Of a stretch of 64,000 nucleotides of DNA, positions 34,259 to 56,079 are shown piece by piece; positions within the stretch are counted from its first letter, which is position 1; each line of letters begins with the position of its first letter. The notes beneath the pieces were generated by a model that did not search any database, was not told the origin of the DNA, and saw only the letters and a program-made list of their open reading frames with translations. Source of the DNA: Schizosaccharomyces osmophilus (Eukaryota; Ascomycota; Schizosaccharomycetes; Schizosaccharomycetales; Schizosaccharomycetaceae). Position numbers and translations under genes: made by a program. The stretch is from contig NC_079238.1 of the NCBI RefSeq assembly GCF_027921745.1, positions 1,736,001 to 1,800,000 of the forward strand, given 5' to 3'.

Positions 34259-36595
34259 TCATTGAAGCGAAGGATCAGTATTAGGAGGAGGATTTGACTC
34301 GTTAGAAGGATGCATCAGCTCTGCCCAGCTTAAAAAAGGCGGAGCCGGCCATTGCCTGTCTATGTCTATGTTTAAGTCGAGATCATCAGCAGACGGAAAA
34401 GTGTTACGGAGAAGCAACGTGGATGGGTCAGCCAAAAACTCAGTGTTCGAAACAGACGATGAAAGATGATCTGATTGGGGGAGGTCTCCGTTTCTACGAT
34501 CAACTAAAGTACTTTCATCAATTGAAATAGGATCTGAAACGGAAGCTCTTTGCTGTTGCAAATAATCATTTTGAGACATATCTCCAACCCAAGACTGCCA
34601 CTTTCGAAAGCTAAATTGAAAGTCACTCGATTCAGGAACAAAAGAAAAAGCCTTCTTATTTGCGAGTTGTTCTGAAAGTTCTTTCAAGGTTTGCAAGTTT
34701 AACCGAGTAGTTTCATTTCGTTGAGATAGAAATTCCATAACTTCCCACAATTTGGATATGGCATCGTCAATTTCTAGAGAAGGCTCATAGTGAGAGCATA
34801 CTAGCAAGATAATTCCGCTGCATATAGGGAGATATGCATCAAAAAACGAATAACTAGACAGACGCTTGTTTTGGAACAACTGATGGGCGATAATAACAAT
34901 ACGACAAGAGCTGTCGACACACATATTTGCGTACTGAAGATTTTCTGGGCTAAGAATTTTTCCCTTATATTTGAATAGCAATACAAATCGGGTAGCAAGA
35001 ATAACCGCATTGTCGTAAATCATTTGTAATTGAGCGTTTAACCGGAAATGAGGATGTTGTGGCGAAGACTCATCGCATAGAAGAGAATGGTGCAAATTCC
35101 GTTTCCAAAGCTCAAGACGAGCACATAGTCTTCGAACATGAGATAGCTGCGTATTAAAATCGGATGGAACTTTCGAGTACAGACAATCACACACTTCACT
35201 CGTGATTTTAGTCAGCTCTATAACTGCGCACATATTAGTAACCATTGAAGGAATACCAGGTACTTCTAAATCAAGCAAAACGCTCGGGTAAGGGGTGGTC
35301 ACATTATCTAAAGTGATACTAAACGGTCGACCTGTCGCAATGCTAATGAACCGATCAACACAAAACACTGACCACCAAAGACGATTTCGAAGTTCTCTAG
35401 AGCTTTGACTAAGGGTAAAGTCCTCACAGTTTTTATGTAATCCTAAGGAGATAGCCGTCTTAACTGCCAAACCAAAGTAAGAATAACTAGCTTTTTGATA
35501 TACTGTAGGTTGAAGATAAAGAGCAATTAAAATAGCAGATTGAACTGTGTTTGTGTTACCTTGAAGCAAAACCATTGGGAAAATGCTAACTGCGGCGGAG
35601 AAGAGCCGATTCCCTATTACGCAAGCTTGAGGACTTGCTGCTACGGGGTCAGTTTGGTGTTCAATCATATATTGGTTTCCAAAAGCGAGTACCATCAATA
35701 GTATACAAAGGAATCCAGGATCAGTTTGGTTTTTTATCGAAAGAAAAATTTCCAGACGAATTTTGAAAAATGATGCATGGTAAAAGAACAAATTGGTTTG
35801 AATGTTCGTAAAAAACGTATTCACTAGAAATTCCGTTACAGTGAGAGAAGGGATAAGGTCACGAGCATGAGAGAGTAAATACTCGTCTAATTCTGAATTA
35901 AAGAAAAATGAGGTAGGTTGGTTTTGTAAAAGAGAATTTTTAGTGGAGAAATCGTTTAGACTAGTATCATTTTGAATCTTTTTTAAGAATTGGTCCACTG
36001 AGGTAGGCCCAAGATACATCGTATCCTCCATTTTTCCTATTAGCAATGACTCATCAAGAGTGACAGCCGGTTCGTTTTGAAGCAAATCATGAGAAAAACT
36101 AGGACCTTTGCTATTCGGAGCAGAAGCACCGTCATCGTCATCGTTGCTTATATGGTTTTTCTTTAGCTCGTTGTTGATACTAACAATAGGATCCAGATCA
36201 TTAAGGATAGTAGAGAGCTGATCAGAAGTTAAACTTTCATGCTCAGATAGTTTCTTAGAGACCGCAACCAGATTTTTTGTGTCCAAATTAAATTCTGGGC
36301 AAATCCTAGAAAAAATGTACTCAAAGCACAACTGACGTTCAGATAATTCATTCAAATACTCCCTAGATGGGAGCTTACTTTGATTTTTCTGCGTGTAGAC
36401 ACAGTCCACTCCAAGCAAGCTACAATTCTCACAAGGATCGTTTCCGTCACATTTAATCTTCTTTTCTCTACAATGTTTACAAGCGCGAAAGACTCTTCTT
36501 CGTTGTTCGGGCGGGACGCGTCGCTTTTTCTTTTTCTCTAATGCCTTGACGTCTGCGTATAATTGAGTTTTTATAAATCCCAAATTTTCATTCAT
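34259..36595 (-). CDS. thi1: Zn2Cys6 transcription factor, probable Thi1 (thiamine regulator)
   Basis: An intronless frame of 778 residues. A Zn2Cys6 cluster sits at Cys39, 42, 49, 55, 58 and 65 (CxxC-x6-C-x5-CxxC-x6-C), inside a basic stretch. The fungal transcription-factor homology domain (about 270-560) includes LGLHKNCEDF and LWWSVFCVDRFISIATGRP. The C-terminus is Ser/Asp-rich. S. pombe Thi1/Ntf1 activates thiamine-biosynthesis genes when thiamine is absent. It has about the same length and lies beside nob1, as here. The name depends on that synteny and length; the zinc-cluster class itself is certain. Confidence 0.75.
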   Translation of the reverse strand: MNENLGFIKTQLYADVKALEKKKKRRVPPEQRRRVFRACKHCREKKIKCDGNDPCENCSLLGVDCVYTQKNQSKLPSREYLNELSERQLCFEYIFSRICPEFNLDTKNLVAVSKKLSEHESLTSDQLSTILNDLDPIVSINNELKKNHISNDDDDGASAPNSKGPSFSHDLLQNEPAVTLDESLLIGKMEDTMYLGPTSVDQFLKKIQNDTSLNDFSTKNSLLQNQPTSFFFNSELDEYLLSHARDLIPSLTVTEFLVNTFFTNIQTNLFFYHASFFKIRLEIFLSIKNQTDPGFLCILLMVLAFGNQYMIEHQTDPVAASPQACVIGNRLFSAAVSIFPMVLLQGNTNTVQSAILIALYLQPTVYQKASYSYFGLAVKTAISLGLHKNCEDFTLSQSSRELRNRLWWSVFCVDRFISIATGRPFSITLDNVTTPYPSVLLDLEVPGIPSMVTNMCAVIELTKITSEVCDCLYSKVPSDFNTQLSHVRRLCARLELWKRNLHHSLLCDESSPQHPHFRLNAQLQMIYDNAVILATRFVLLFKYKGKILSPENLQYANMCVDSSCRIVIIAHQLFQNKRLSSYSFFDAYLPICSGIILLVCSHYEPSLEIDDAISKLWEVMEFLSQRNETTRLNLQTLKELSEQLANKKAFSFVPESSDFQFSFRKWQSWVGDMSQNDYLQQQRASVSDPISIDESTLVDRRNGDLPQSDHLSSSVSNTEFLADPSTLLLRNTFPSADDLDLNIDIDRQWPAPPFLSWAELMHPSNESNPPPNTDPSLQ

Positions 36596-42186: not shown

Positions 42187-43674
42187 TTAAAGCATATATA
42201 GGAATAGAGGATCCTCGTCATTTTGGGGCTGTTTGGATAGTTCCTTGGGAGTCAATTGCTCCATACAACGTCTTTTCGAAGCATTCTTAGCTGAATAGTA
42301 TAAGATAGTCAGGATGTGCAAAACGGTTGCGATGCCAATGGCAACTAAAGAGGTAGCATGGCCAGCTACGTACTTGGGCGGAAACTGATACACTTGGCCA
42401 GAGAGAATACCAGCAGAGTTTGCAATTGCCATTTGCATACTAATAGCTGTTGCACGCTTGTAATGAGGTGCAACATTAGCGCTCAACCAAGTGACATTAA
42501 GACCAGCGCCGGTGTAAATTCCCAAGGAGCATAAATAGCAAGCAAAGTATAAAACATCGTTTTTTCCTTGACAGGTTAGCAGCAATATATAACCGATGAT
42601 GGGGAAGATATTGCTAGCAATCAAAATAAGACCTCTCGATCTAAAGCGATCCGAAAGGAAAGAGGCTACGATGTAGACGACAGCACCAAGGATATACACT
42701 GGGATGGTAAGGTATTGAACGGAAAGAGATTGATGGCCCATTCCTTGGATAATGGCGGGAAGAAAGGTACTGAAACCGTACAAGCAAGTATCCTGCCCAA
42801 ATTCAGCAAGAGAGGAAAGGTAAATTTTTTTATCTTTAAAAGCGTCGAAAATGCTTTTCCAGTCGAATTGATCTGCCAAATCCGAGCGTCGCTGTTCTTT
42901 ACGATGACGAACCATATCCCGATAGGGCTCAGACAGGAACCAAGCCTTTGCGGGATCATTGGGAATGATAAAATACCCAAGGACTCCAGAAACGAATCCA
43001 ATCAACCCTTCAATGATAAACAACCAACGCCATCCAGCGTAGCCTCCGACATTTTGCATATGCAAAATGGCATAGGCAAAAAGGCCACTGAAGGCACCGG
43101 AAAGTGCTGAAGCAGCGAATAGATATGCAATGCGTGGTGCCAGCTCGTCTCTAGAGTAAATCATGGTTAAATATACTGTGAGGCAAGGAAACAGACCTGC
43201 CTCACAGGCACCTAAAACAAGGCGAGTAACAAGAAACCCGGCAAAGTTCTGAACGAATCCAGTGAATATTGTTGTAAGCGAAAAAGTAAGAACGATGAGA
43301 GTGAGCATTTGCTTTGGCTGGACTTTCTTGATCAACAAAGTGATGGGTATTTCTAACAAAATAAAAGTGACATAAAATAAGCTCGTTACAATATTGAATT
43401 GGTTTCCTTTCAAGTGTAAATCTTCAGACATGCCAGCGACTTTTGCGTTGCCAATGTTGGTACGATCCAAAAAGGCAATTAAATAAAAGATCATGATTGT
43501 AGGAGCTAAAACCAAATCTAAACGCCTCAGCAAACGTTTTCTCTCATCCATGGAAAGCTCTCTTTCCACAAGGCTATTCGATGATGAGCCCGTAGAATCG
43601 TTTTTTTTCTCGTCTACGATAACATGGTCTATTTTGGAAGTCGCTTTATCCGAACCTGAAGACTCAGTAGACAT
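42187..43674 (-). CDS. MFS anion:cation symporter, nicotinic-acid (Tna1)-like
   Basis: ATG 43674 (MSTESSGSDK) gives 495 residues. The frame is open 25 codons further upstream but without conserved look. After a charged, Ser-rich cytosolic N-terminus come about 12 membrane segments. The family signature is FYLIAFLDRTNIGNAKVAGM in segment 1, followed by RLVLGACEAGLFPCLTVYLTMIYSRDE, as in the allantoate/nicotinate permease branch. S. pombe has a predicted nicotinic-acid transporter at this spot beside urg2. Its position inside the uracil cluster leaves room for a pyrimidine-derived or breakdown-product substrate (inference). Confidence 0.82.
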   Translation of the reverse strand: MSTESSGSDKATSKIDHVIVDEKKNDSTGSSSNSLVERELSMDERKRLLRRLDLVLAPTIMIFYLIAFLDRTNIGNAKVAGMSEDLHLKGNQFNIVTSLFYVTFILLEIPITLLIKKVQPKQMLTLIVLTFSLTTIFTGFVQNFAGFLVTRLVLGACEAGLFPCLTVYLTMIYSRDELAPRIAYLFAASALSGAFSGLFAYAILHMQNVGGYAGWRWLFIIEGLIGFVSGVLGYFIIPNDPAKAWFLSEPYRDMVRHRKEQRRSDLADQFDWKSIFDAFKDKKIYLSSLAEFGQDTCLYGFSTFLPAIIQGMGHQSLSVQYLTIPVYILGAVVYIVASFLSDRFRSRGLILIASNIFPIIGYILLLTCQGKNDVLYFACYLCSLGIYTGAGLNVTWLSANVAPHYKRATAISMQMAIANSAGILSGQVYQFPPKYVAGHATSLVAIGIATVLHILTILYYSAKNASKRRCMEQLTPKELSKQPQNDEDPLFLYML

Positions 43675-44857
43675 AATGGAAATGTTATTGAATAAGATAG
43701 AAAATAGTAAAGTAACTTTTACTCGTTTTCCCCGAAATGAATTAGACAAGGACTATGTGAGGACGAACCCTTCTACCGGAGAGACGACAAACCTTTTGAA
43801 TAAGACAACAAGAAAAAAAGGAACGCGAAAAGATACCTTTTTTTTCAACTTAAGAGAAACCAAATTGAACCAACAAGAAAGATGAAAGAGGCAGAAATCA
43901 AAAATCGGTGGCGAAAATCGACAAGACAGACTTCCAAAAGAATTTATAGGTATCCAAAAAGACAAAAAAGAATTGTTATTCTCGATTGTTGTTCTGTGTG
44001 TGTCTCCTCAAGAGGACTTTATGTATAAAAAAAAAAAGAGATCATTAATGTTTATACCGGGTAACTGGAAAAACAGTCCAACGGATTTATCGGATATAAT
44101 CAAATATGATTCGACATTAATTAAGAAACGAAACCTTATAATACTAAACGAAAAACCCCGCAACGAGCATGCATGTTTCTCTCGGTTTTGTTTCTTTTTT
44201 TATTGTTTTGTGTTTTATTTCTAAATTAGAATTTGATGAAATTAATTCCAATCGAATTCTCGCCTTGTGAGAACCTGTATTCAGTGTTGTAGGATACTTT
44301 GGATACGGGATTTCGGGTATGATTTTAGTCGGAAATTCGCGCATTACGACATAGAATCAACAAATACCATACTAAAGAGGAATCGTAAGATAATATTTAC
44401 TAGCATTCAGAGGCATTGATTTTCTATGGTTGAGAGTAGGAAAGAAGAAGGAAGGAGGAAGAAGAAAAATCAAAAAGGTGTTTGAAAGAAATCTTACAAT
44501 CGAAACCAGCTTTTATGGACGGGTGGAAACGCATCGTCAAGAGGGTTTCTTTGGTAGATTTTTATAAAGATAGGAACATTCTTAGGTTATGAAATCTTTT
44601 TAGATCATGACGGCAGCAAACAAGATCATTACGATGGCGTTGAGATGATGAAAAAGGATAGACTTTTGCTAAAAAGAAGATCCGAATTGAACAATGGACT
44701 TTTTGAAACTAAGAAATCCTTCCTATGGGAAAACAGGGAAAAAGTGAGAATCTAGTAATATGGGCAAGTCTGTGTAAATTGTCATATCATTCCTTTAAAA
44801 CCATTGGGTTCCACAAAGTTCAAGTTGTTATACTTTTGAGGGTGCGTGACTCAGGGC
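43675..44857. other. Intergenic, urg2 3' to transporter 5'
   Basis: 1183 nt. It carries the transporter's upstream side, with T-rich and A-rich patches. Short frames on both strands have no recognisable content. No CCGCGG is present here, unlike the other promoters of the cluster. Confidence 0.5.
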
Positions 44858-45478
44858 CTAAGCAGTGGCGCCGTAGAGCCGATCGCCAATGTCGCCAATG
44901 CCAGGGACGAGGTAACCTTTGTCATCGAGGCTCTTGTCGATGGCACCAAAGACAAACTCGACATTAGGAGTGTCGTTGAAACGAGCAACAGCTTGTGCAC
45001 TTGCCAAAACACTAACAAAGACAATGTGCTTGCAGCCCCATTCTTGGAGAGTAGTAATCACCGCCTGAGCAGTACCACCAGTAGCCATAACGGGGTCCAA
45101 CACAATGGCGACTTCTGTAGAATGTTTGGGAAGCTTGTTGTAATACTCAATGGGCTGCAGAGAGCTTTTTTCTCGGAAAATTCCGATATGGTAGATTGGA
45201 ACATCTGGCAATACTTTGGAGAAAGCACTCATCATTGACATGCCGGAACGAAGGACTGGGATTACGGACACGGAGGAAACGTCCAAACACTTTGTAGACT
45301 CGTAGGCCAAGAATCGAGAAATCTCATCCACCACACTGCGCACTTGGGAAGGCTTCAAGGACAAGTCACGAAGAATGGAAATTAATTCGTTGACAACAGG
45401 ATGATCCGAAATAGTTATGTTTTTCATGGTTTCTACAGAGGAGGAAGAAAAAACAATCGAATTGGCAGTGTTTGTCAT
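44858..45478 (-). CDS. urg2: Urg2, uracil phosphoribosyltransferase family (Urc6-like)
   Basis: An intronless frame of 206 residues. The PRPP loop is intact: D128-P-V-M-A-T-G-G-T136. The uracil-binding C-terminus reads GYLVPGIGDIGDRLYGATA. VLRSGMSMMSAF matches the flexible loop of bacterial-type UPRTs. UPRT makes UMP from uracil and PRPP. In S. pombe, urg2 is strongly induced by uracil. In Lachancea kluyveri, the equivalent URC6 is needed for uracil breakdown as nitrogen source, which suggests that forming a nucleotide starts the catabolic route. It is divergent from urg3 across a promoter with two CCGCGG sites. Confidence 0.92.
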   Translation of the reverse strand: MTNTANSIVFSSSSVETMKNITISDHPVVNELISILRDLSLKPSQVRSVVDEISRFLAYESTKCLDVSSVSVIPVLRSGMSMMSAFSKVLPDVPIYHIGIFREKSSLQPIEYYNKLPKHSTEVAIVLDPVMATGGTAQAVITTLQEWGCKHIVFVSVLASAQAVARFNDTPNVEFVFGAIDKSLDDKGYLVPGIGDIGDRLYGATA

Positions 45479-45719
45479 TGGAAAAGAATCGTTTCTTGTT
45501 TGTAATGTATTAGAATAGTGTCCAGAATAATAAACAAAGGGCTGGTTTCAACAATGCGAAAAAACCGAAGCAAAAAAAACACACACACACACACAAAGAT
45601 ACTGTTTTCTTTTTAAAAAAGAAAAAGAATGGAATGGATGGATATGCTTCTTTTTGATGGAAACCCTTTGAATTTATAGCATTTTCCCTTTTCTTTGTTT
45701 TCTGGCTTCCTCGGCACCT

Positions 45720-45725
45720 CCGCGG
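45720..45725. promoter_or_regulatory. CCGCGG site 1, urg2/urg3 promoter
   Basis: Palindrome CCGCGG, with a CGG 8 nt to its left (TCGGCACCTCCGCGGG). Everted CGG triplets are the usual half-sites of Zn2Cys6 factors. The palindrome is seen directly; its role as a binding site is inferred. Confidence 0.5.
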
Positions 45726-45793
45726 GTCGACCAGCTCTGTATCAGCAGCGGCTTGTTGATAGTACAGTTGGACGGGAATTCTTTCTTATACCA

Positions 45794-45830
45794 TATGCTT
45801 TAAAAGAACAAAACATATGCTTTTAAAATG
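45794..45830. repeat. Direct repeat CATATGCTTT(T)AAAA
   Basis: CATATGCTTTAAAA at 45794-45807 and CATATGCTTTTAAAA at 45816-45830 are identical but for one T, and their starts are 22 bp apart, about two helical turns. The location between divergent promoters suggests paired binding sites (inference). Confidence 0.6.
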
Positions 45831-45880
45831 CGACAAATATGTCCATGAAAGAATGTTTATCCAAGTCTGCGACGGAATCC

Positions 45881-45892
45881 AAGCCGCGGCTT
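45881..45892. promoter_or_regulatory. CCGCGG site 2, extended 12-bp palindrome
   Basis: AAGCCGCGGCTT is a perfect 12-bp palindrome, with CCGCGG at 45884-45889. It lies about 305 bp upstream of urg3. Confidence 0.55.
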
Positions 45893-46196
45893 AGCCGTGG
45901 TAAAAAGAAAAATCCACAAAGCTGTGACATACCAGAATGCGTATCTCAAAAAAGCCATTGGGTGGGATAATATCTTTTCCATGAACATTTCTCCTCTATA
46001 AATAACCATTCTTTTCCTTGTGTGAGTCTTCTAGAACCATTGTCCTATCAAGAAACCTTGCCATTTTACAAAGAACCCAAGTTTACGTTCGTTCGTTCTT
46101 TTCCAACTCGTCTTGCTTTCCTGTTCCCCTGAATTCCACCTTGATTGCTTTTCAGAAATTGCTTGCAATAGTGAATTCCTACCCCGTCGTTCCAAT

Positions 46197-47399
46197 ATGA
46201 CTACAGAAACAATTGCAGACATCCTGTCTTTACAAAACATTCGCACCAAGGCTCAGAGAGTTTTGGCCATTGCCGAGAAAAATCGGCTGCATGCTTTTGA
46301 GTACGATCCTAGCAAGCTTGACGCGGTAGCAGATTTTGTGGTATGGGTGGTTCAAAAAGATTTCAAGGGTAAATACGACACAATTCCCCCTCATGGAAGA
46401 TGGCAACACTTTGAGGTTGGAAACATTCCACGTCTCACTCGACTGATACATACTTGGACCGATCAAGGTGTATCTTCTCTTGAAGTCTGCAAGCGTGTTT
46501 TGGACATAACGTTTCTTAGTGTTTTGCTCGATGCTGGTGCCGGGGATACATGGTCGTATTTGGATGGCGTTGAACGCTATGCCCGTAGTGAAGGGTTAGC
46601 GGTCGCCAGTCTTCGTTGCTTTGAGAAAGGTTTGTTCTCTCATGATCCCGAAAACCCATACCAGGTAGACGGTTTAGCTTTAAGCCAACTGAAAACGGAA
46701 GCATTGGCTGAGGGCTTTCAAGTTTCCAAACAAAACCCAATTGCTGGTATAGAGGGAAGAGCATCCATTCTTCGTGCTTTGGGAAACCAATTGCAGAGCT
46801 CTCGTCCTAGTTTTTTTGTTGATTCTATTTTTCCAACGGGAAACTTTGCTTCGGAGTACCTCGATGTTGAAACGCTGTGGTCGGAATTACAAACAGTATT
46901 GATCCCCATTTGGCCTGAGCGTACAAAATATGAGGGAAAGAATATCGGAGATGCTTGGTATTTATCAACCATTGACTCTATGCAGCCTTTCCATAAATTA
47001 ACGCAATGGCTCACTTACTCTCTCTTGGTTCCTTTGAAGCGATTGCTGCACGTACAAGTGGTCAACGAAACACTTTTGACCGGATTACCCGAATACAGAA
47101 ATGGAGGGCTTTTTGTAGACCTTGGCGTACTCAAGCTTCGTCCCGAATATCCCACTACCGAAGAATACGAGCCGGACAGCGTTGTTATCGTCGAGTGGAG
47201 AGCCATGACCATTGTCTTGCTTGATAAGCTACTAAGCTTGGTAAACGAGCGCCTGCGAGAGGAGTTAAAGACCCCATTGTCCTTGGCACAAATGTTGGAA
47301 GCTGGAAGTTGGAAATCCGGAAGAATTATTGCTCGCAAGTTACGACCCACCAGTGCCGGCAGTCCTATTCTCATCAAAAGTGATGGTACATTGTTTTAG
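46197..47399 (+). CDS. urg3: Urg3, DUF1688 protein of uracil catabolism (Urc4-like)
   Basis: ATG 46197 (MTTETIADILSLQNIRTKAQRV) gives 400 residues. Upstream in-frame codons lie in AT-rich leader. The family DUF1688 is recognisable from PPHGRWQHFEVG, DAGAGDTWSYLDG, RSEGLAVASLRCFEKGLFS and RPSFFVDSIFPTGNF. In S. pombe, urg3 responds to uracil. In L. kluyveri, the homolog URC4 is required to use uracil as nitrogen source. The reaction is not known to me. Conserved Asp/His/Trp/Arg clusters suggest an enzyme, perhaps a hydrolase acting on the ribosylated pyrimidine (inference). It is divergent from urg2 and co-oriented with urg1. Confidence 0.92.
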   Translation: MTTETIADILSLQNIRTKAQRVLAIAEKNRLHAFEYDPSKLDAVADFVVWVVQKDFKGKYDTIPPHGRWQHFEVGNIPRLTRLIHTWTDQGVSSLEVCKRVLDITFLSVLLDAGAGDTWSYLDGVERYARSEGLAVASLRCFEKGLFSHDPENPYQVDGLALSQLKTEALAEGFQVSKQNPIAGIEGRASILRALGNQLQSSRPSFFVDSIFPTGNFASEYLDVETLWSELQTVLIPIWPERTKYEGKNIGDAWYLSTIDSMQPFHKLTQWLTYSLLVPLKRLLHVQVVNETLLTGLPEYRNGGLFVDLGVLKLRPEYPTTEEYEPDSVVIVEWRAMTIVLLDKLLSLVNERLREELKTPLSLAQMLEAGSWKSGRIIARKLRPTSAGSPILIKSDGTLF

Positions 47400-48147
47400 T
47401 TTATATGTTTTCCTTTCCTTTGTTGTTGAATGATATTCTAGGCTTATATGAATTCTTGTCATTTTTTAACAATCAAATTTAACCTGTATAAAAGCTTGTA
47501 GACGCTCTATCGATATAATAGAAAAGGTTCTTGTAAGAATGCAAACAAACGTATAGATATTTCGTCTGTATCTTTTTGGATGCACATATAGCAAAGCAAA
47601 GCAATTCAATAGCATATAGTTATCTTAAAAAGTTCCTTCGATTTTTTGAATGCCTTATCTAAAAACCTCACGTTTCCATTTCCATTTCCAACTTTTGCAC
47701 TTCATCCAAAACAAACGGATTATTCGTTCTCTGTTGATTGTCTGTTTCCCTTTTTCCCTTTTCTGTTTATTTACGTTTCCCATAAAGGCGCCTTTGCTTT
47801 GTCGCTTAAAGAAAAGCCAAATTGGCCTTTCGTAGTTCCGCGGATGTCCCGAAACACATACTTATCCGGTAGACCATAACCCATTACGTCTTACGTCGAC
47901 AGCGGCGGCAATACCTCGGCTTCACCGTCAACATGACTTGAAAGAAATATATGATAAACAAAAGATAGAGCCACGAAAGGTATAAATAAGGCAGCGTCCG
48001 CCACAAAGACATTCATTACCAGAATTGATTTTTACGTTGACAATAAAAACAATTCCAATTAAATTCTTTCAAGCTGAACTTATCTTAGTTCCTCTGTTTA
48101 CATAGAACGAATTTTCTCACATACGCTTTTGTTTCCTAAAACGTACA
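47400..48147. other. Intergenic, urg3 to urg1 (urg1 promoter)
   Basis: 748 nt. It contains one CCGCGG palindrome and, 60-75 nt later, a CGGCGG plus further CGG triplets (about 47900-47930), then a TATA-like TATAAATA near 47982. In S. pombe, the urg1 promoter is rapidly uracil-inducible. Confidence 0.6.
47837..47844. promoter_or_regulatory. CCGCGG site 3, urg1 promoter
   Basis: TCCGCGGA is an 8-bp palindrome with CCGCGG at 47838-47843, about 305 bp upstream of the urg1 ATG. It is followed by CGG-rich sequence. It is a candidate target of the cluster's Zn2Cys6 factor (inference). Confidence 0.55.
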
Positions 48148-49461
48148 ATGTTGGCTACTGAACAGCCAAAACCTAGCACTCATGAAGAGAATCATCCAAC
48201 TGTTTTGGTGAAGAAGCCTCTGTATACCCGTCCTGTTGTTTTGACGACCTATCCAACACAAAACAAGTCCGACCCTTTCCCTTTAAATTGGGGAGCATCA
48301 TCACCTCAAAAGCGTGGTCCTATAACAGTTTCTCGTTCCATTGAAACTCTTCCTCACAGAAACGCCATTGGAGCTCATGGCGGTAGCTATTGTGTTTACA
48401 ACTCGTTGGCCGTGGCAGGTGGGTTCTTGCCTGCTGACCATCACCCGGATTTTACACTCACACAACCTACCTTTGAGTTTCCTGAAGTTGCTTCCTGGCA
48501 CGATAAGAACAAGATTGTTGCCATGGACCCCTATGGCCATGACACCCCTCGGTACTTTAAAGAGTACTTGGAGAAGGGATATGATATCCGTCCTACTATT
48601 GCTATTACCCGTGCAAACATTCGAGTAACTGAAATCCAACGTTCTATCGAAAATGGATCTCTAGCGGTGGATGGCAAAGTTGTACTCAACAAGGAGGGCG
48701 ACATTGCCGTTACGAAAGTGGCAGTGGAACCTGTTTGGTATCTTCCCGGAGTCGCTGAGCGATTTGGTGTGGACGAGATCACTCTTCGTAGAGCCTTATT
48801 TGAGCAAATGGGTGGTGCTTATCCTGAATTAATTACCCGTCCCGATATTAAGGTCTTTCTTCCACCCATTGGAGGTGCCACTGCTTACATATTTGGTCCT
48901 CCTGAGTACCTGAGTGATCCTACAAAAAAGTTGGCCGTCCGTGTTCACGATGAATGCAATGGTTCTGATGTTTTCCAGAGTGATATTTGCACCTGCAGAC
49001 CTTATTTGGTGTTTGGTCTTGAGGAAGCCGCTAAAGAAGCACAGAATGGTGGCGCTGGCCTAGTTGTTTATTACCGTAAGGAAGGCCGTGCTCTGGGTGA
49101 AGTTGTTAAATACCTTGTTTACAATAAGCGTAAGCGTACTGGAGATACCGCTGACAACTATTTTCGCCGAACCGAAGAATTAGCAGGTGTCCGTGATATG
49201 CGTTTCCAAGCTTTAATGCCGGATATCCTCCACTGGTTCGGAATTACCAAAATTGAACGCTTGCTCAGTATGTCTAACATGAAATACGATGCCATTGTCG
49301 GATCTGGAATTTCTATCGTGCAGCGCGTTACGATCCCAGAAGACCTCATTCCTGCCGATTCGCAAGTCGAAATCGACGCCAAAATTCAGTCTGGATACTT
49401 TTCTGATCAAAAGAAAGTCACGCAAGAGGACTTGGCCTGTGTTCACGGTCGTACCTGGTGA
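48148..49461 (+). CDS. urg1: Urg1, GTP-cyclohydrolase-II-like enzyme (Urc1-like)
   Basis: An intronless frame of 437 residues, about 200 longer at the N-terminus than bacterial RibA. The GCHII zinc ligands are present as Cys270-x10-Cys281-x-Cys283 (HDECNGSDVF...CTC). The catalytic loop is YYRKEGRALG (308-317) against RibA's YLRQEGRGIGL, so the key Arg stays. The segment that in RibA reads TNNP near the base is here SMSNMKYDAI (374-383). A true riboflavin-pathway GCHII would keep that, so a different substrate is likely. L. kluyveri URC1 of this family is needed for uracil breakdown. In S. pombe it is the classic uracil-induced gene. Confidence 0.93.
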   Translation: MLATEQPKPSTHEENHPTVLVKKPLYTRPVVLTTYPTQNKSDPFPLNWGASSPQKRGPITVSRSIETLPHRNAIGAHGGSYCVYNSLAVAGGFLPADHHPDFTLTQPTFEFPEVASWHDKNKIVAMDPYGHDTPRYFKEYLEKGYDIRPTIAITRANIRVTEIQRSIENGSLAVDGKVVLNKEGDIAVTKVAVEPVWYLPGVAERFGVDEITLRRALFEQMGGAYPELITRPDIKVFLPPIGGATAYIFGPPEYLSDPTKKLAVRVHDECNGSDVFQSDICTCRPYLVFGLEEAAKEAQNGGAGLVVYYRKEGRALGEVVKYLVYNKRKRTGDTADNYFRRTEELAGVRDMRFQALMPDILHWFGITKIERLLSMSNMKYDAIVGSGISIVQRVTIPEDLIPADSQVEIDAKIQSGYFSDQKKVTQEDLACVHGRTW

Positions 49462-50869
49462 ATGCACGGCTAATTATTCTTTGCATGTGCTTGTCTTTGA
49501 AATTTTGTCTGTTCCACTCATTGTTACTTTTTTAGCTTGAGGCTTTGTTCATGTCTTGACGAGCCATATCTATCTCTTCACCTTTCATGTTTATAATAAT
49601 TTCCGTTTTCCTCTATTCGTCTTTTGTAAAACGCACTGTAAGTTCTCTGTTTTGGAAGTAGTTTCTAGTTTGTACGGACCGCATAGGGTTTGTTATCACT
49701 CTTACCAACTCTGGGCTTTCTTTTACTCGTACATTCTAAACTTTTTGTATTTCTTTTATTTCCCTCTACTGCTTCTTGTAAGGTAAATAAGTACGTGTTA
49801 ATGGCAAAAAGGATCGACTTTGTTAAATCTTCCCTGTTTGCGACATTATGAGATGCGGCTTCCATGGAAAGCAAGCAATCTTTCATGTAAACAAAAACAG
49901 CTGTTAATACTGTAAAGTTCTATACATATTTTAATAGATCCGTTTTTAAACCCAGCAAATTTATTCAATAGTAAATCGTACACAGCTCGCATCAGAGGAG
50001 CTTTTAATATTACAAAGCGTCGGTAGACAATGATAATACTAATGCATATATAAGTCATAGATCAGCATAATTTAATCAATCGAGGATTCAAAGCAATGAA
50101 CTAGCAGTAGTTATTCTGCATTTATACTTTTTCGACTCTTAAAATTGTCAAATGCTCCTAGGAGAGAACTTAATCGGAAATTTCGCTGGCTGAGTTAATA
50201 GACCTGTTCGATAACAGAGATTTTAGTATCACCAAAGCCATTCCTACAGTAAATTCTATCACGTATTTTATACGAATAAGAATATCTTTAATAACTCTTT
50301 AACTACGAGCAGTTGTATTCTGCTTATGCTATTACATTCAGCAGATTTTATGCGAAACTCGTTTTTGTTATGTTATTATAGTAAAGAAACATATTACTAG
50401 TACCTACTGGTAAATTTCTCTGTTGAGGGATCTTTGTTTCCTCTAGGTTCTGGTCTATTTCCTTACTTTCTCCTTTATTAAAGTATCTTCTGAAAGGGCT
50501 ATATCTGAATAGGTACTTATATCTCCCTCAGCAGTAGCGTAAATTCACTTCTGTTTTATCATCGAATATATTATTTTACTTGAACAAACCCGTGTTTTTT
50601 CTTATATTATCACTTTGCAACTTTACCAGGGTAAATCCATTTACTTTGAGTATCTATAAAAGATCAAAATAGAAAGAAAAACGCTGTTTTGGAATTTCCG
50701 AATTTTTGGGGTAAACAACAACAGACTTTCAAAGAGATATCCAGATTGAACCTCTATATACCTATACTATTAATAAAATCCTGCGCCGATTGTTTGGGTT
50801 CTTCTCTGCTAATGACTCTTTTTTTTTTTATGCATAGACTGTCAATAAAGCAAACTTGAAGAGTCCTTA
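49462..50869. other. Long intergenic region, urg1 to toe1-like gene
   Basis: 1408 nt, strongly AT-rich. No frame here has recognisable content. A TATA-like TATAAAAG lies near 50655, about 215 nt before the next ATG. No CCGCGG was seen. A non-coding transcript is possible but nothing in the sequence proves one. Confidence 0.5.
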
Positions 50870-52592
50870 ATGAATGGAATGAAAGCCCAACATCCATCCA
50901 GTATACTTATGCTTAAACGGAAAAGAGCATTGGAAGCTTGTGACTCTTGCAGAAAACAAAAAACACGATGTCTTGCAGGTCCACCCGATGATGAAGATCG
51001 CACATGTTTGCGGTGTCGTTCTTTACAGCTCGAATGTAGCTTGGCCAAATTTAACCAGACTCTCCGTAAACCTGATGGCGATGCCTTGGAATCTTCAGCA
51101 GCAGTCATTCTCAATGTAAATCTCGAAAAAAGGTAAGGTTTAAATTAGCATCACAACAGTATCCTTTTCTTCTAGTTAGGTGTGTCTTTGCTAACTTTTT
51201 TTTAGACTTAAAGTTTTGGAAAAGGCCGTAAGCTCTCTTTCAACGTCGGCCCTCCATGCACGACCCACCTACCCTTCTGAAGACATTTATCTCAACGGTA
51301 TACTCTCTCTTGATGAAATTGAGCTCTTATTGGATATTTTCATTGAACGCTATGGTAAGCGTTGGCTATCACTTGACTGTACTGGAGCTGAATATCTCGA
51401 GTTTCTTTACCGCAAGTCTCATCTTTTGCTTGTAACTGCTTGCGTAATAGCTTTGCGACACAATCCTTCTCTCAAGGCCCGAGTGTATTCACAATTACTT
51501 GATATAGTTGATCTCCTCGTTTCCCAAGAATTACTGACTGCATCGCCCTCTCTCCAATTTTTTGAAGCTGTCTCTATATTGTCTCTGTACCAACCTCTTC
51601 GTTACGTTCAAAAACAAGATCTTTGGCTCCTTAGCGGGTTTGCCTTGCGGCACCGCATCCTCTCGAGTACCCAAGGTTGGTTCAACGGCTTTGTAGGTTC
51701 TCGATCAACCCTTACTTACCTGGACATTGTTCCTGCTCGTACTTGGAACCATCTTTGCCATGCCCATTTACTCATGTGTATAGGATATCGTCGACATGCA
51801 ATGCTTGAAGAACCCACCTTCGACGAGTGTAGAAATATTTTGACCAACTGCCAAGCCAGTGAATTCGATGGAAACATCCTTGGTATGTTGTCTGTTTATT
51901 CCATGTTGTATCGTTTACTTCGTTCGTCTTTTGATTTAGATTATGCCATTTTTCAACTCGAAGAATGGCGAAAAGAATGGTGTCACTTATGGGAGCAACC
52001 CGAACCAGTGTATTCGCAGGTTGCTTATTTTTATGCTTACAATGTCGTTTATGAAGTTGGCATCCAAATGACTTCAGATACGAAGCATCTTGCTAATATT
52101 GCAGAATATGTTGGTATGCTTGAAACGTATGCTTTAAAGACTGTCAACGCCATTTTTGAACTCTCTGCGTATGATATGTCTCGTTGTTCTGACCATGTCT
52201 TGTTTCATGCGGCCTTTGCTTGTGCCAGCATGCTACGATTAATGTATGCGGCGAAAACCAAAGACATTGGTTCTCTAGCGGTTCAAACAGAACTTTTGAA
52301 CGAAGTTGTTACAAAGACATGGAAATGGCTTTTATTGATTAGCGTCGATCAATATCATTTCGCTACCAAATTCGCTACCTACTTAAAAGAGTACCAATCT
52401 ACTGTCAACGAGGCAGACCCAGATACTTTTCTGTCTTCCGCCAAATCAGGTTCTTCTATTGTCCCTTCGTCTTCTGATCCAACGTCGACTCCGTCCACAT
52501 GGTATAGAGGCCCACCTCGAGCGGTATCCGATGCAACACTGCAAGGAATAAAGCCATATAATTTAGGAGTGGCTACTGTGGAACATGGCTAA
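50870..52592 (+). CDS. toe1: Zn2Cys6 transcription factor, Toe1-like, 2 exons
   Basis: Exons 50870-51132 and 51206-52592 encode 549 residues. The 73-nt intron (GTAAGG; GCTAAC then a T-rich tract) joins NLEKR to LKVLEKAVSSLS, completing a short dimerisation helix. The zinc cluster is at Cys24, 27, 34, 46, 49 and 56, with an 11-residue third loop. The remainder is helical (fungal TF homology region), with FVGSRSTLTYLDIVPARTWN and later helices, and the C-terminus is Ser/Pro-rich. In S. pombe, a factor of this class (SPAC1399.05c, toe1) neighbours a UPRT and fur4. Here it lies between urg1 and the UPRT, a natural candidate regulator of the cluster. The exact orthology needs an alignment. Confidence 0.82.
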
Positions 52593-52682
52593 ATTTGTTG
52601 TGTCATCCGCTTCGTTGAATGATAAAGTCTTTTCTTTTATTGTGCGTTGATTTTGTGTCAAAAAATAAAAGGGTTAAGGGTA

Positions 52683-52699
52683 CCGCGGGGAATCCCCGG
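52683..52699. promoter_or_regulatory. CCGCGG site 4 with overlapping inverted repeat, UPRT promoter
   Basis: CCGCGGGGAATCCCCGG holds CCGCGG (52683-52688) overlapping a near-perfect inverted repeat CGGGGA/TCCCCG. It lies about 165-180 bp upstream of the second UPRT gene. This is the most GC-rich spot in a very AT-rich flank. Confidence 0.55.
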
Positions 52700-52861
52700 A
52701 AATAGGAATGAAGAGTATAGCTGTGTATCAGAATTTGTCCCTTATATATGAAACAAAAAGTCTCTCGGAAAATGCCGTTTTTGTTCATAAATTATCGTTT
52801 TCATACCCATTTCCTCGTCCTTCTTTGTCGCATTTTTTGACTCAAGTTTTTTACTTCTTAC

Positions 52862-53568
52862 ATGTCTCGTTCAAATTTTGGACTGGAAAATGTACGAGTT
52901 CTTCATCAGACTGTGTACTTAATTTCGTTAATGACAATTATTCGTGATAAAAATACCAATCATTCTGAATTTGTCAGAACATCAAATATAATCATTAATA
53001 TGCTGGTACAGGAGGCAATGAATTATGTCCCCATGAAGAAACACCTTATTGTTAGTGGTTCTGGTGGTACATACAATGGCTTTAAGCCTGCCCAAAAAAT
53101 ATGTGGTGTAAGTATTTTGAGAGCTGGTGAAAGCATGGAACATGGCTTGAATGCTGCTTTTCATTCCGTACCCATTGGGAAAATCCTTGTCCAAAGAGAC
53201 GAGTTGACTTTTGAGTCCAAGCTCCTATTCTGTAAATTGCCCAAAGGCATTGAAGCCTATTTGGTTTTTCTTATGGACCCTTTGTTGGCAACAGGAAACT
53301 CTTCTGTCCTTGCCATCCAGGCGTTATTACGAAAAGGTGTCCCAGAGGAAAACATCGTTTTTCTTAATCTGATTTGTTGTTCTCAAGGTATTGAGAATAT
53401 TGGAAAGCGATTTCCTAAACTCAAATTGGTTACTGCAGCTATCGATCCAGAATTAAATGATCAATGGTACATCATAAAACCATTTTCTATTATCTATACT
53501 AACCATTGTTTAGCTATGTGTTACCTGGCTGTGGAGACTTTGGAGACCGCTATTTTGGTACTTCTTAA
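52862..53568 (+). CDS. Uracil phosphoribosyltransferase, second paralog, 2 exons
   Basis: Exons 52862-53466 and 53514-53568 give 219 residues. Without splicing, the frame drifts after AIDPELNDQ into unrelated hydrophobic sequence. Removing a 47-nt intron (donor GTACAT, branch TACTAAC, TTTAG) restores the uracil-binding end YVLPGCGDFGDRYFGTS. The N-terminus VRVLHQTVYLISLMTIIRDK and SILRAGESMEHGL are Fur1-like. In the PRPP loop, Fur1's DPMLATGGS reads D139-P-L-L-A-T-G-N146-S, so the second glycine is replaced. Activity may be changed. It is distinct from Urg2. S. pombe has a comparable paralog beside fur4. Confidence 0.85.
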
Positions 53569-54378
53569 AACCATTGTAAATTTACGCAATTGCACATACA
53601 CAAATATATATTTGCTTGCAATTATCTCTGCCATGTGTTCTATTTATGTATAATATATATTATTGAATAAACTATGTAAAATCATTGCAATTAGGTCAAG
53701 TGAATACGTTTAGAAGAGAGCAAGGGTAGTGCAATGGTCTCCAAGTCAAAATGATTTTCTTTTGAATAATTTATCTATTACTTGAGTAAAGTAAACGGAT
53801 AATTTCTAAACAATCTCGTCGTTAGAATAATTCGGCTTTTCAAGGTGCTTGTTCAAGAGTAGATGTCTTCAATTCAATGCACGGTACCACATTCCTACTA
53901 ATTTAAAATGGAAAATAAAATTCCTAATTGTTTATTTTGGGTTTTGTAAAACAATCACCACTCTCTATTCCATGTTTTATTCTAACGAACCTTTTTAGTA
54001 TTATCTCTTGGGCAGAAATAAACTTATATTAAAAAGCATTAACTCAAAATGAAATGAAATAACTTACCCTGTTTACGGAAAAAACGTACATAAATAAATA
54101 ACATGTTATTAACATAAAGAAAGACATAAACATCTTTTTCATACAAAAATGGAAAATAAATATCTAAAAATAAATAAAATGAAGCCTTGATACCTGCATT
54201 GATTCAAATGAAAATGCTATAGCTATAAGTTCGTCAGTAGGTGATTTTGATAAAAATACATAATAAATCAAGGAATCAAGGCAGAAATTAACTAATCCAA
54301 AAACCAATTAAAAAAAATTTTAACGAAACGACTAACAATTAGTGAGATACGTAAGAAGAACAAAGTGAAAAACATAAC
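53569..54378. other. Convergent 3' region, UPRT / uracil permease
   Basis: 810 nt of very AT-rich DNA between two converging genes. I see nothing beyond likely 3' UTRs. Confidence 0.5.
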
Positions 54379-56079
54379 TTATGGCAAGCAACCAACTTCT
54401 TTGGACTTAAGACTGTGAACATCGCTTTTCTCATCCTCCTTGCTTGGTAAGCCATCAATGAAATAATCAGAAGAACTGTCAGTTGTATCTTCCAGACTTA
54501 TTAAGAATTCTTCTGTTTCTTGAGGTGTTTCACTTAAGAACTTCTCACCTAACTCAGTAACAGGGAACACATAGCAGATCAAAATATGGGTCAAGGCACT
54601 GACTAAGAATCCCAAAAAGTAATTGAGATTGAACATGGTGCTTGCGGCAGTCGGTACTTTGTTACCAGTGGAACCAGCCATACCAACAATGTTTATCAGC
54701 ATACCACATATATAAGAAACAAAGCCACGGAAATTAATCCCCTTGTAAAAGTAATAGCAGCTAGATTCGTCGGACTTGTAAAGATGTGAAGTTCGAATAT
54801 ATCCTTTACGGATTATAAAGTAATCGGCAGTAAAAATGCCAGCAAAAGCCGACATGAAAACCGAGTAAGAAGAAAGATATGTGGTAAAATTGTTGCTAGA
54901 ACTTAGCAAATTCCAAGGACACATGCAAATAGCAATTATGGAAGCGAGGTAAGCACCGCGACGGACATTAAATACGGTAGGAAGCAACGCAGAAATATCA
55001 TTACCGGCAGAAACAGAGTTTGCTGCCACGTTTGTACCAAGTTGGGCAACACAGAGACCAAAACCGATGAAAAAAACGCCAGCACGAACACCATGGGCAT
55101 TTGAATGGTCCAAAAACGCCGAAAGGAGACTAGTTGGGTCCCAATAAGCCTTTCCATAGATTGACTTGGAAGCAGAACTGACAAGGATACCAATTAAGGA
55201 TGTGATACCGAATGAAAGGGGTACAGTAATGATTTGAGGCCAGAGGTTGGCATTAGGAGTAGTGGCAAATCTAGCAAAGTCCGGACTATTAACGGCCAAG
55301 GTAGCAAAGCCATCCAAGACAGTTACAATGCCATTTACGACGGTCCAACCATGCTCCCATTTCGGAAGGTTTGTAGGCTCGTGAATGACAGGACCAGCGC
55401 CTTTGGCTTTGACAAGGGCCCAAATTAAAAAGGCGACTGCGGCAGGAGGAGCGATAAAAGCCTTAATGGTAAAAAGATGGCGAATTTGATGAACTGGAAA
55501 CCAGATTGCGACATTCGAAACGAGCCAAAAGATAAAGAAGCCAACCCATTGGTAAGTTTCGGTACCACTGTTCCCCATGGTATTGTGGATATGGGAAAAG
55601 GAGGGCCAAATAGATCGTAGCATTAAGACGACACATTCACCTCCAATCCAGGCGTGGACACCAAACCATATACATGCCATGACACTGCGATTTAAAACAG
55701 GCCATAAAGAGCCCCAAATACCAAACGAACAGCGAGAAACTACAGGAAAGGAAACATGATAGACGGCACCAGGACGACCAGTTGCAGCGATCAAAAAACC
55801 ACAAATCATGTAACCTACCCAGACGCAAATCCAAGCTTCCCACCAATTGAGACCAGCTTCAATGGCAGTAGCTGAAATCATCCAAGTGTTAATGTTTACA
55901 GATTCAGCAAGCCAAAAAGAAATATAGTTCCAATGCCCCCAAAGACGCTTGCTGCTTGGGACAGGGTATAAATCCTCGTTAGTCAACATGCGTTGCCTCA
56001 AAGATAAACCTGGCTTTTGGTCTAACAGGATAATGTCTTTGAGTTTTTGGTAGACCTTATTTTCCGTGACTTTGCCCAT
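54379..56079 (-). CDS. fur4: NCS1-family uracil permease, Fur4-like
   Basis: ATG 56079 ([19 protein letters not shown]) gives 566 residues. The preceding Phe-rich codons are a T-run artefact. NCS1 landmarks are [23 protein letters not shown] before membrane segment 1, [19 protein letters not shown] and NSPDFARFA. About 12 membrane segments are visible, and the C-terminal tail is acidic and Ser-rich, as in Fur4, where such tails control endocytosis. The transporter brings in uracil by proton symport. It closes the pyrimidine block: regulator, UPRT and permease are adjacent. Allantoin or uridine as substrate cannot be excluded from sequence, but context favours uracil. Confidence 0.87.

Follow-up and report, generated by a model that had tools for sequence, protein, structure and literature searches.

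What do seven neighbouring genes of a fission yeast do with uracil, and which reaction in particular is carried out by the DUF1688 protein Urg3 (Urc4) that they include? We addressed this in a 64,000-nucleotide stretch of Schizosaccharomyces osmophilus DNA (contig NC_079238.1, positions 1,736,001 to 1,800,000), hereafter referred to as the window. Gene identities were assigned from open reading frames (ORFs) with Pfam and NCBIfam, and the seven adjacent genes that a preliminary description had placed at 42187-56079 are real. The locus contains Urc1 (GTP_CH_N plus GTP_cyclohydro2), Urc4 (DUF1688) and an adjacent uracil phosphoribosyltransferase (UPRT) of the Urc6 type, and is thus the uracil-catabolism (URC) cluster of a Schizosaccharomyces other than S. 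pombe. The content of the cluster had therefore been read correctly, whereas its novelty did not stand, as the S. pombe cluster is already in print (PMC2174524, PMC3869809; here and below, published statements are taken from the accessible parts of each paper). The new element here is a link between Urc4 and Qng1. We consider it likely that Urc4 and this queuosine-salvage enzyme form two branches of a single nucleotide N-ribosyl hydrolase family, in which Urc4, with Glu in place of the active-site Asp of Qng1, would cut ribosylurea 5'-phosphate, and that a core of UPRT, UTP cyclohydrolase and glycosidase extends from bacteria to fission yeast, here wired to a Zn2Cys6 factor via CCGCGG. No link between Urc4 or DUF1688 and Qng1 was found among the papers listed in a literature search, and a mention in the founding Urc or Qng1 papers is possible.

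Mutants in urc4 accumulate ribosylurea, and a Qng1-like enzyme was suspected before the fold search because the conversion of ribosylurea to urea requires breaking the sugar-nitrogen bond. The preliminary description had called the chemistry of Urc4 unsettled; Urc4 was already termed ribosylurea-degrading in PMC7530994 and PMC8709784, and the claim holds for the mechanism, which is absent from the accessible parts of both. Qng1 belongs to the hydrolases that release a base from a nucleoside or nucleotide (PMC9406330, PMC11130926) and acts on queuosine 5'-monophosphate according to the title of Hung et al. 2023, cited in PMC11130926, with which the titles of the PDB entries agree. An AlphaFold model of Urg3 built from 12 sequences (predicted local distance difference test (pLDDT) 85.8, predicted template modelling score (pTM) 0.87) gave 73 matches in the PDB at E ≤ 10, and all 11 of those at E ≤ 0.001 were Qng1/DUF2419 chains (best Qng1 E = 5.0e-9, next non-Qng1 match E = 1.4). 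A model of a bacterial Urc4 (11 sequences, pLDDT 91.5, pTM 0.91) gave 101 matches, and again 11/11 at E ≤ 0.001 were Qng1/DUF2419 (best E = 3.8e-9, next match E = 0.66); the alignments behind the fungal and bacterial models are mostly common, so the two results are not fully independent. Comparison of a profile of 12 Urc4 sequences with one of four Qng1 sequences supported the relationship (Prob 93, E = 3.4e-7, 301 columns). In a rerun the Urc4-Qng1 score was 64.1, against 33.5 for the best of 100 column shuffles of Qng1, 24.0 for the best of 100 column shuffles of Urc4, 15.5 for reversed Qng1 and 12.7 for Urc1. The predicted fold and a profile similarity above all controls thus place Urc4 in the Qng1 superfamily.

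The similarity extends to the active site. In the profile alignment, K199, D231, D298 and W302 of Qng1 map to K267, E299, E368 and W372 of Urg3. D298 and W302 are named as active-site residues in PMC11592518, and the PDB entries of S. thermophilus Qng1 include K199C and D231N mutants, the D231N chain fixing D231 in the alignment. We found K267, E299, Y300, R301 and W372 to be identical in all 36 aligned Urc4 rows, which represent 35 distinct genes (L004 and L019 are one gene; L042, a contig-end fragment, was dropped from the conservation rows and from the locus counts below), so that K199 and W302 of Qng1 proper are kept throughout. Position 368 is E in 21 rows and Q in 15, and 19 of the 42 columns that are invariant in both Urc4 and Qng1 carry the same residue.

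The step before Urc4 is better charted. Urg1 passes the cut-off of NCBIfam NF005536, aligns end to end with the PDB chains 7ej3 and 7eev (E ~7e-144) and is 54-59% identical to bacterial Urc1. In GTP cyclohydrolase II (GCHII), three cysteines hold zinc, and a Tyr, an Asp and an Arg serve catalysis. Urg1 has both the zinc cysteines and the Tyr/Asp/Arg set: C270, C281, C283, Y325, D350 and R352, invariant in 11/11 Urc1 proteins, align with C54, C65, C67, Y105, D126 and R128 of the GCHII chain 2bz0. That chain, of 196 residues, differs from Urg1 in lacking the N-terminal PF12471 domain. The PDB labels 7ej3 and 7eev as GTP cyclohydrolase II, and we infer that they represent the published UTP cyclohydrolase. 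The preliminary description had also regarded Urc1 chemistry as unsettled, which is outdated, since a UTP cyclohydrolase paper (Zhang et al. 2021) is cited for the URC pathway in PMC12507026; we regard this chemistry as largely settled. By analogy, if the mechanism is GCHII-like and pyrophosphate is released as well, the product would be ribosylurea 5'-monophosphate.

These assignments suggest an order of events. Uracil would be imported by the Fur4-type permease and converted by a UPRT to uridine monophosphate (UMP), which cellular kinases raise to uridine triphosphate (UTP). Urg1, as a UTP cyclohydrolase, would then open and strip the ring to give ribosylurea phosphate and a three-carbon acid, and Urg3, as a Qng1-fold N-ribosyl hydrolase, would split ribosylurea 5'-phosphate, yielding urea and ribose 5-phosphate. 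Expression of urg1, urg2, urg3 and the second UPRT gene, at least, may be activated by the neighbouring Zn2Cys6 factor, possibly via CCGCGG, an everted CGG repeat. Taken as a whole, this explanation, namely a URC cluster with Urc4 as a Qng1-fold ribosylurea-5'-phosphate hydrolase and control by the factor possibly via CCGCGG, appears to us quite probable. The coordinates are given in Table 1.

Table 1. Genes and promoter regions of the URC cluster, with positions in the window
Feature	Position	Strand	Supporting match
MFS (major facilitator superfamily) transporter, substrate unassigned; adjoins urg2	42187..43674	-	PF07690 E 1.8e-39
urg2 (Urc6-type) uracil phosphoribosyltransferase, bacterial type	44858..45478	-	PF14681 E 3.5e-54
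Bidirectional urg2/urg3 promoter region; CCGCGG x2 (45720, 45884)	45479..46196	.	
urg3 (Urc4, DUF1688), proposed ribosylurea-5'-phosphate N-ribosyl hydrolase, predicted Qng1 fold	46197..47399	+	PF07958 E 2.1e-150
urg1 promoter region; CCGCGG x1 (47838)	47400..48147	.	
urg1 (Urc1), UTP-cyclohydrolase-type GCHII relative	48148..49461	+	PF12471 E 1e-86, PF00925 E 6e-18
Zn2Cys6 transcription factor, Toe1-like by position	50870..52592	+	PF00172 E 1.7e-7 (first 120 aa)
Second-UPRT promoter region; CCGCGG x1 (52683)	52593..52861	.	
Second uracil phosphoribosyltransferase, eukaryotic (Fur1-like) type	52862..53568	+	1upf E 2.2e-62
fur4-type uracil permease (NCS1 family)	54379..56079	-	PF02133 E 7.6e-164; TIGR00800 over cut-off

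We further examined urc4 in bacteria, using 11 loci from named genomes and 24 usable loci from a class-wide search, which together give 34 distinct loci (L004 = L019). Within 1 kb of urc4 there is a UPRT gene in 11/11 and 24/24 of these, and Urc1 is encoded beside urc4 in 32 of the 34 distinct loci (10/11 and 23/24). As to the exceptions, L001 is cut at a contig end, and L028 has no Urc1 in the locus, its genome carrying Urc1 on another contig; L038 is also cut. The two families also co-occur at the genome level: PF07958 exceeded its cut-off in 11 of 300 genomes, and PF12471 was found in the same 11, always on one contig, with one additional sub-cut-off PF07958 match (G464) that came without PF12471. 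In a second set of 289 genomes, PF07958 was present in 25 and PF12471 in 24; all 24 are common to both, 22 of them on one contig, and the match in the 25th PF07958 genome is a contig-end fragment. No relative of the MFS protein, the factor or the permease was found at E ≤ 1e-6 in the 11 loci from named genomes (flanks up to 10 kb). We therefore take urc1, urc4 and the UPRT gene to be the bacterial core, and transport and control to be fungal additions. This tight bacterial unit supports part of the reading given in the preliminary description. A possible Urc1-Urc4 gene fusion in L010 (an 850-residue open frame) was rejected, as the Urc1 and Urc4 matches fall in separate reading frames. In a gammaproteobacterial locus (L003, 1-12245), urc1, urc4 and the UPRT gene come after respiratory-chain-like genes (Proton_antipo_M, molybdopterin oxidoreductase), and a Corynebacterium glutamicum control genome gave a sub-cut-off PF12471 match in both searches.

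The Zn2Cys6 factor of the cluster resembles S. pombe Toe1 in position and may be its counterpart, and Toe1 itself reportedly drives pyrimidine-salvage genes. In PMC9434175, which cites Vachon et al. 2013, Toe1 appears as one of the characterised factors of a group whose processes include pyrimidine salvage. The hexamer CCGCGG occurs seven times in the window (mean 3.25 in 100 window shuffles, two of which reached seven). Three copies lie inside coding ORFs, and all four non-coding copies fall in the urg2/urg3 (two), urg1 and second-UPRT promoters. When the six intergenic regions of the cluster were shuffled 2000 times, none of the shuffles reached four copies (mean 0.17), and in one of them three regions carried the hexamer. 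Everted CGG repeats are among the sites that Zn2Cys6 factors can bind, and from its distribution CCGCGG is possibly the site of the regulator, which we regard as the weaker finding. The long words common to the promoters are mostly A-rich. The urg1 copy precedes the ATG by 310 bases; the S. pombe region from 232 to 675 bases upstream is required for low urg1 expression without uracil (PMC2174524). Another Zn2Cys6 factor, with a Fungal_trans domain and unrelated in appearance, is encoded at 34259-36595 (-), ~5.6 kb ahead of the cluster.

Several observations weigh against the explanation proposed above. The match to Qng1 is distant (~18% identity, template modelling score ~0.6 by query, root-mean-square deviation 4-6 Å), and the Qng1 profile consisted of four sequences, all bacterial. 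DUF1688 was the sole Pfam match of Urg3 at E ≤ 0.01, PF10343 (Q_salvage) being unmatched. A PDB sequence search with the single Urg3 sequence retrieved no Urc4 relative, and one with the 12-sequence Urc4 profile retrieved chance-level matches only and no Qng1 chain. The catalytic Asp of Qng1 (D231) is Glu in 36/36 Urc4 rows, and position 368 is Glu or Gln; therefore, Urc4 is not Qng1 itself. On the regulatory side, CCGCGG was chosen post hoc, came second to AAAGAA in the ranking of the six-mers tested, and has a nominal value of 1.8e-5 that rises to ~0.037 on correction over 2079 six-mers; it is also absent from three of the six regions, the fur4, MFS-gene and factor promoters. Moreover, S. 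pombe deleted for urg1 grows normally with or without uracil (PMC2174524).

The missing sites in the fur4 and MFS promoters bear on whether the neighbours share any control, or whether urg1, urg2 and urg3 alone respond to uracil, with the permease, the second UPRT gene and the MFS gene as bystanders. The latter would also agree with PMC2174524, which in its accessible text names just urg1-3 as strongly induced, and with the bacterial loci that have no permease, factor or MFS relatives. However, the gene functions fit a single pathway, CCGCGG also occurs in the second-UPRT promoter, and PMC3869809 puts permease, UPRTs and factor in the same conserved arrangement. The spacing between urg1 and fur4 is likewise near-equal in the two yeasts, at 4917 bases between coding sequences here and 4847 bases from the printed gene bounds in S. 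pombe (PMC10097750). We thus consider unlinked control of the neighbours unlikely, if still worth keeping in view.

A different product is conceivable for Urc4 even with the Qng1 fold: it might hydrolyse the ureido group as an amide hydrolase, releasing ammonia and carbon dioxide or carbamate and leaving the sugar-nitrogen bond for another enzyme. Ribosylurea has amide-type bonds as well, the change of the catalytic Asp to Glu speaks for such a shift, and PMC7530994, in its accessible part, has ribosylurea degraded to urea by the URC4 product but does not say how. On the other hand, the urea product reported there demands sugar-nitrogen cleavage, and the relative whose active-site positions map onto Urc4 releases a base, which makes an amide hydrolase improbable. 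We also give little credence to a nucleoside-type hydrolase acting on ribosylurea after a phosphatase has removed the phosphate: PMC7530994 and PMC8709784, as far as accessible, mention ribosylurea without phosphate, but Qng1 is described on a 5'-monophosphate, and the cluster contains no phosphatase gene, nor was one conserved next to urc4 in bacteria among the flank ORFs tested. Cleavage of ribosylurea 5'-phosphate by an N-ribosyl hydrolase therefore remains the reading that we prefer for Urc4.

The other members of the cluster called for some corrections. Six of the seven identities in the preliminary description were upheld; the seventh, a nicotinate-type transporter, is supported as an MFS protein only. 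Its matches in Pfam (PF07690) and NCBIfam are at the MFS level, the score against TIGR00893 (207 bits) being under the cut-off of 395, and no comparison aimed at nicotinate permeases was made; position is all that ties this gene to uracil or nicotinate. The two UPRTs had been called a pair, and they are not recent duplicates, with 31% identity over 137 residues and different closest solved structures (1i5e, E = 1.6e-39, for Urg2 and 1upf for the second). Urg2 is ~20 residues shorter between the first helices and the PVLRSGM strand than bacterial UPRTs and the second UPRT. In the second UPRT gene, an intron at 53467-53513 restores a C-terminus ending in ...PGCGDFGDRYFGTS and moves the stop to 53568; a degenerate C-terminus was rejected, as this intron accounts for the break. 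The regulator gene has an intron at 51133-51205. The label of a self-contained unit was borne out for import, nucleotide formation by UPRT, ring opening and an adjacent regulator, and is too strong because no gene among the seven handles urea or the three-carbon product.

Around the cluster, the proteins identified by Pfam include an RBR-type ligase, Ctu2-like, Nob1-like, Nop9-like and Trs120-like proteins and a glycosidase of family GH63, and among the part of the window's ORFs outside the cluster that was scanned with Pfam, none is related to pyrimidines. The G+C content across the window is 37-40% in 8-kb steps. No tandem repeats or Rfam matches were detected in or around the cluster, and no tRNA was found.

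The link between DUF1688 and Qng1 points to a definite substrate, products and residues for Urc4, whose working was the missing piece. With it, the core of the second eukaryotic route of pyrimidine breakdown would be complete, and nucleotide recycling would be joined to queuosine salvage. The urg1 promoter is in wide use as a fission-yeast tool, and the CCGCGG sites may offer a direct handle on the uracil switching of urg promoters.

We finally compared the cluster with known systems. Qng1/DUF2419 proteins share fold and profile similarity with Urc4 and the residues K199 and W302, and the setting of the genes differs: the bacterial Qng1 locus examined (L012) adjoins tgt, not urc1. There, the Qng1 gene (8-970) lies directly ahead of the tgt gene (PF01702; 622-2187), an arrangement that fits queuosine salvage. 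Two adjacent pieces (L016 and L017; 2-171 and 173-285) match the Qng1 family in genome G012, which may reflect a split gene or a frameshift. PF10343 was found in none of the 11 genomes with a urc4 locus and likewise in none of the control genomes, so this comparison is uninformative; a second search, covering 194 genomes from the phylum to which the Plectonema genome belongs, detected it in 5. The bacterial urc1-urc4-UPRT units resemble the fungal cluster in keeping Urc1, Urc4 and UPRT side by side, and differ from it in having no permease, MFS or factor relatives within the 11 loci. With the URC pathway of Lachancea kluyveri, which yields urea and 3-hydroxypropionate (PMC7530994), the cluster has Urc1, Urc4 and UPRT in common; that pathway adds the URC3/URC5 urea amidolyase and URC8, and none of the seven genes performs those steps. 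In S. pombe, urg1-3 are clustered and are the most strongly uracil-induced genes, with urg1 also induced >100-fold in nitrogen starvation (PMC2174524), and the locus further contains UPRTs, a transporter for uracil and a putative zinc-finger factor (PMC3869809, citing Andersen et al. 2008). By these printed descriptions the genes are the same (urg1-3, factor, UPRTs, fur4), whereas the nine primers and probes published for the S. pombe urg1 locus (PMC2174524) carry 2 to 8 mismatches at their best placements in the window, which is therefore not S. pombe DNA. Together, these comparisons show the cluster to be the known one in a sister species of S. pombe, to which our analysis adds a concrete and testable identity for Urc4.

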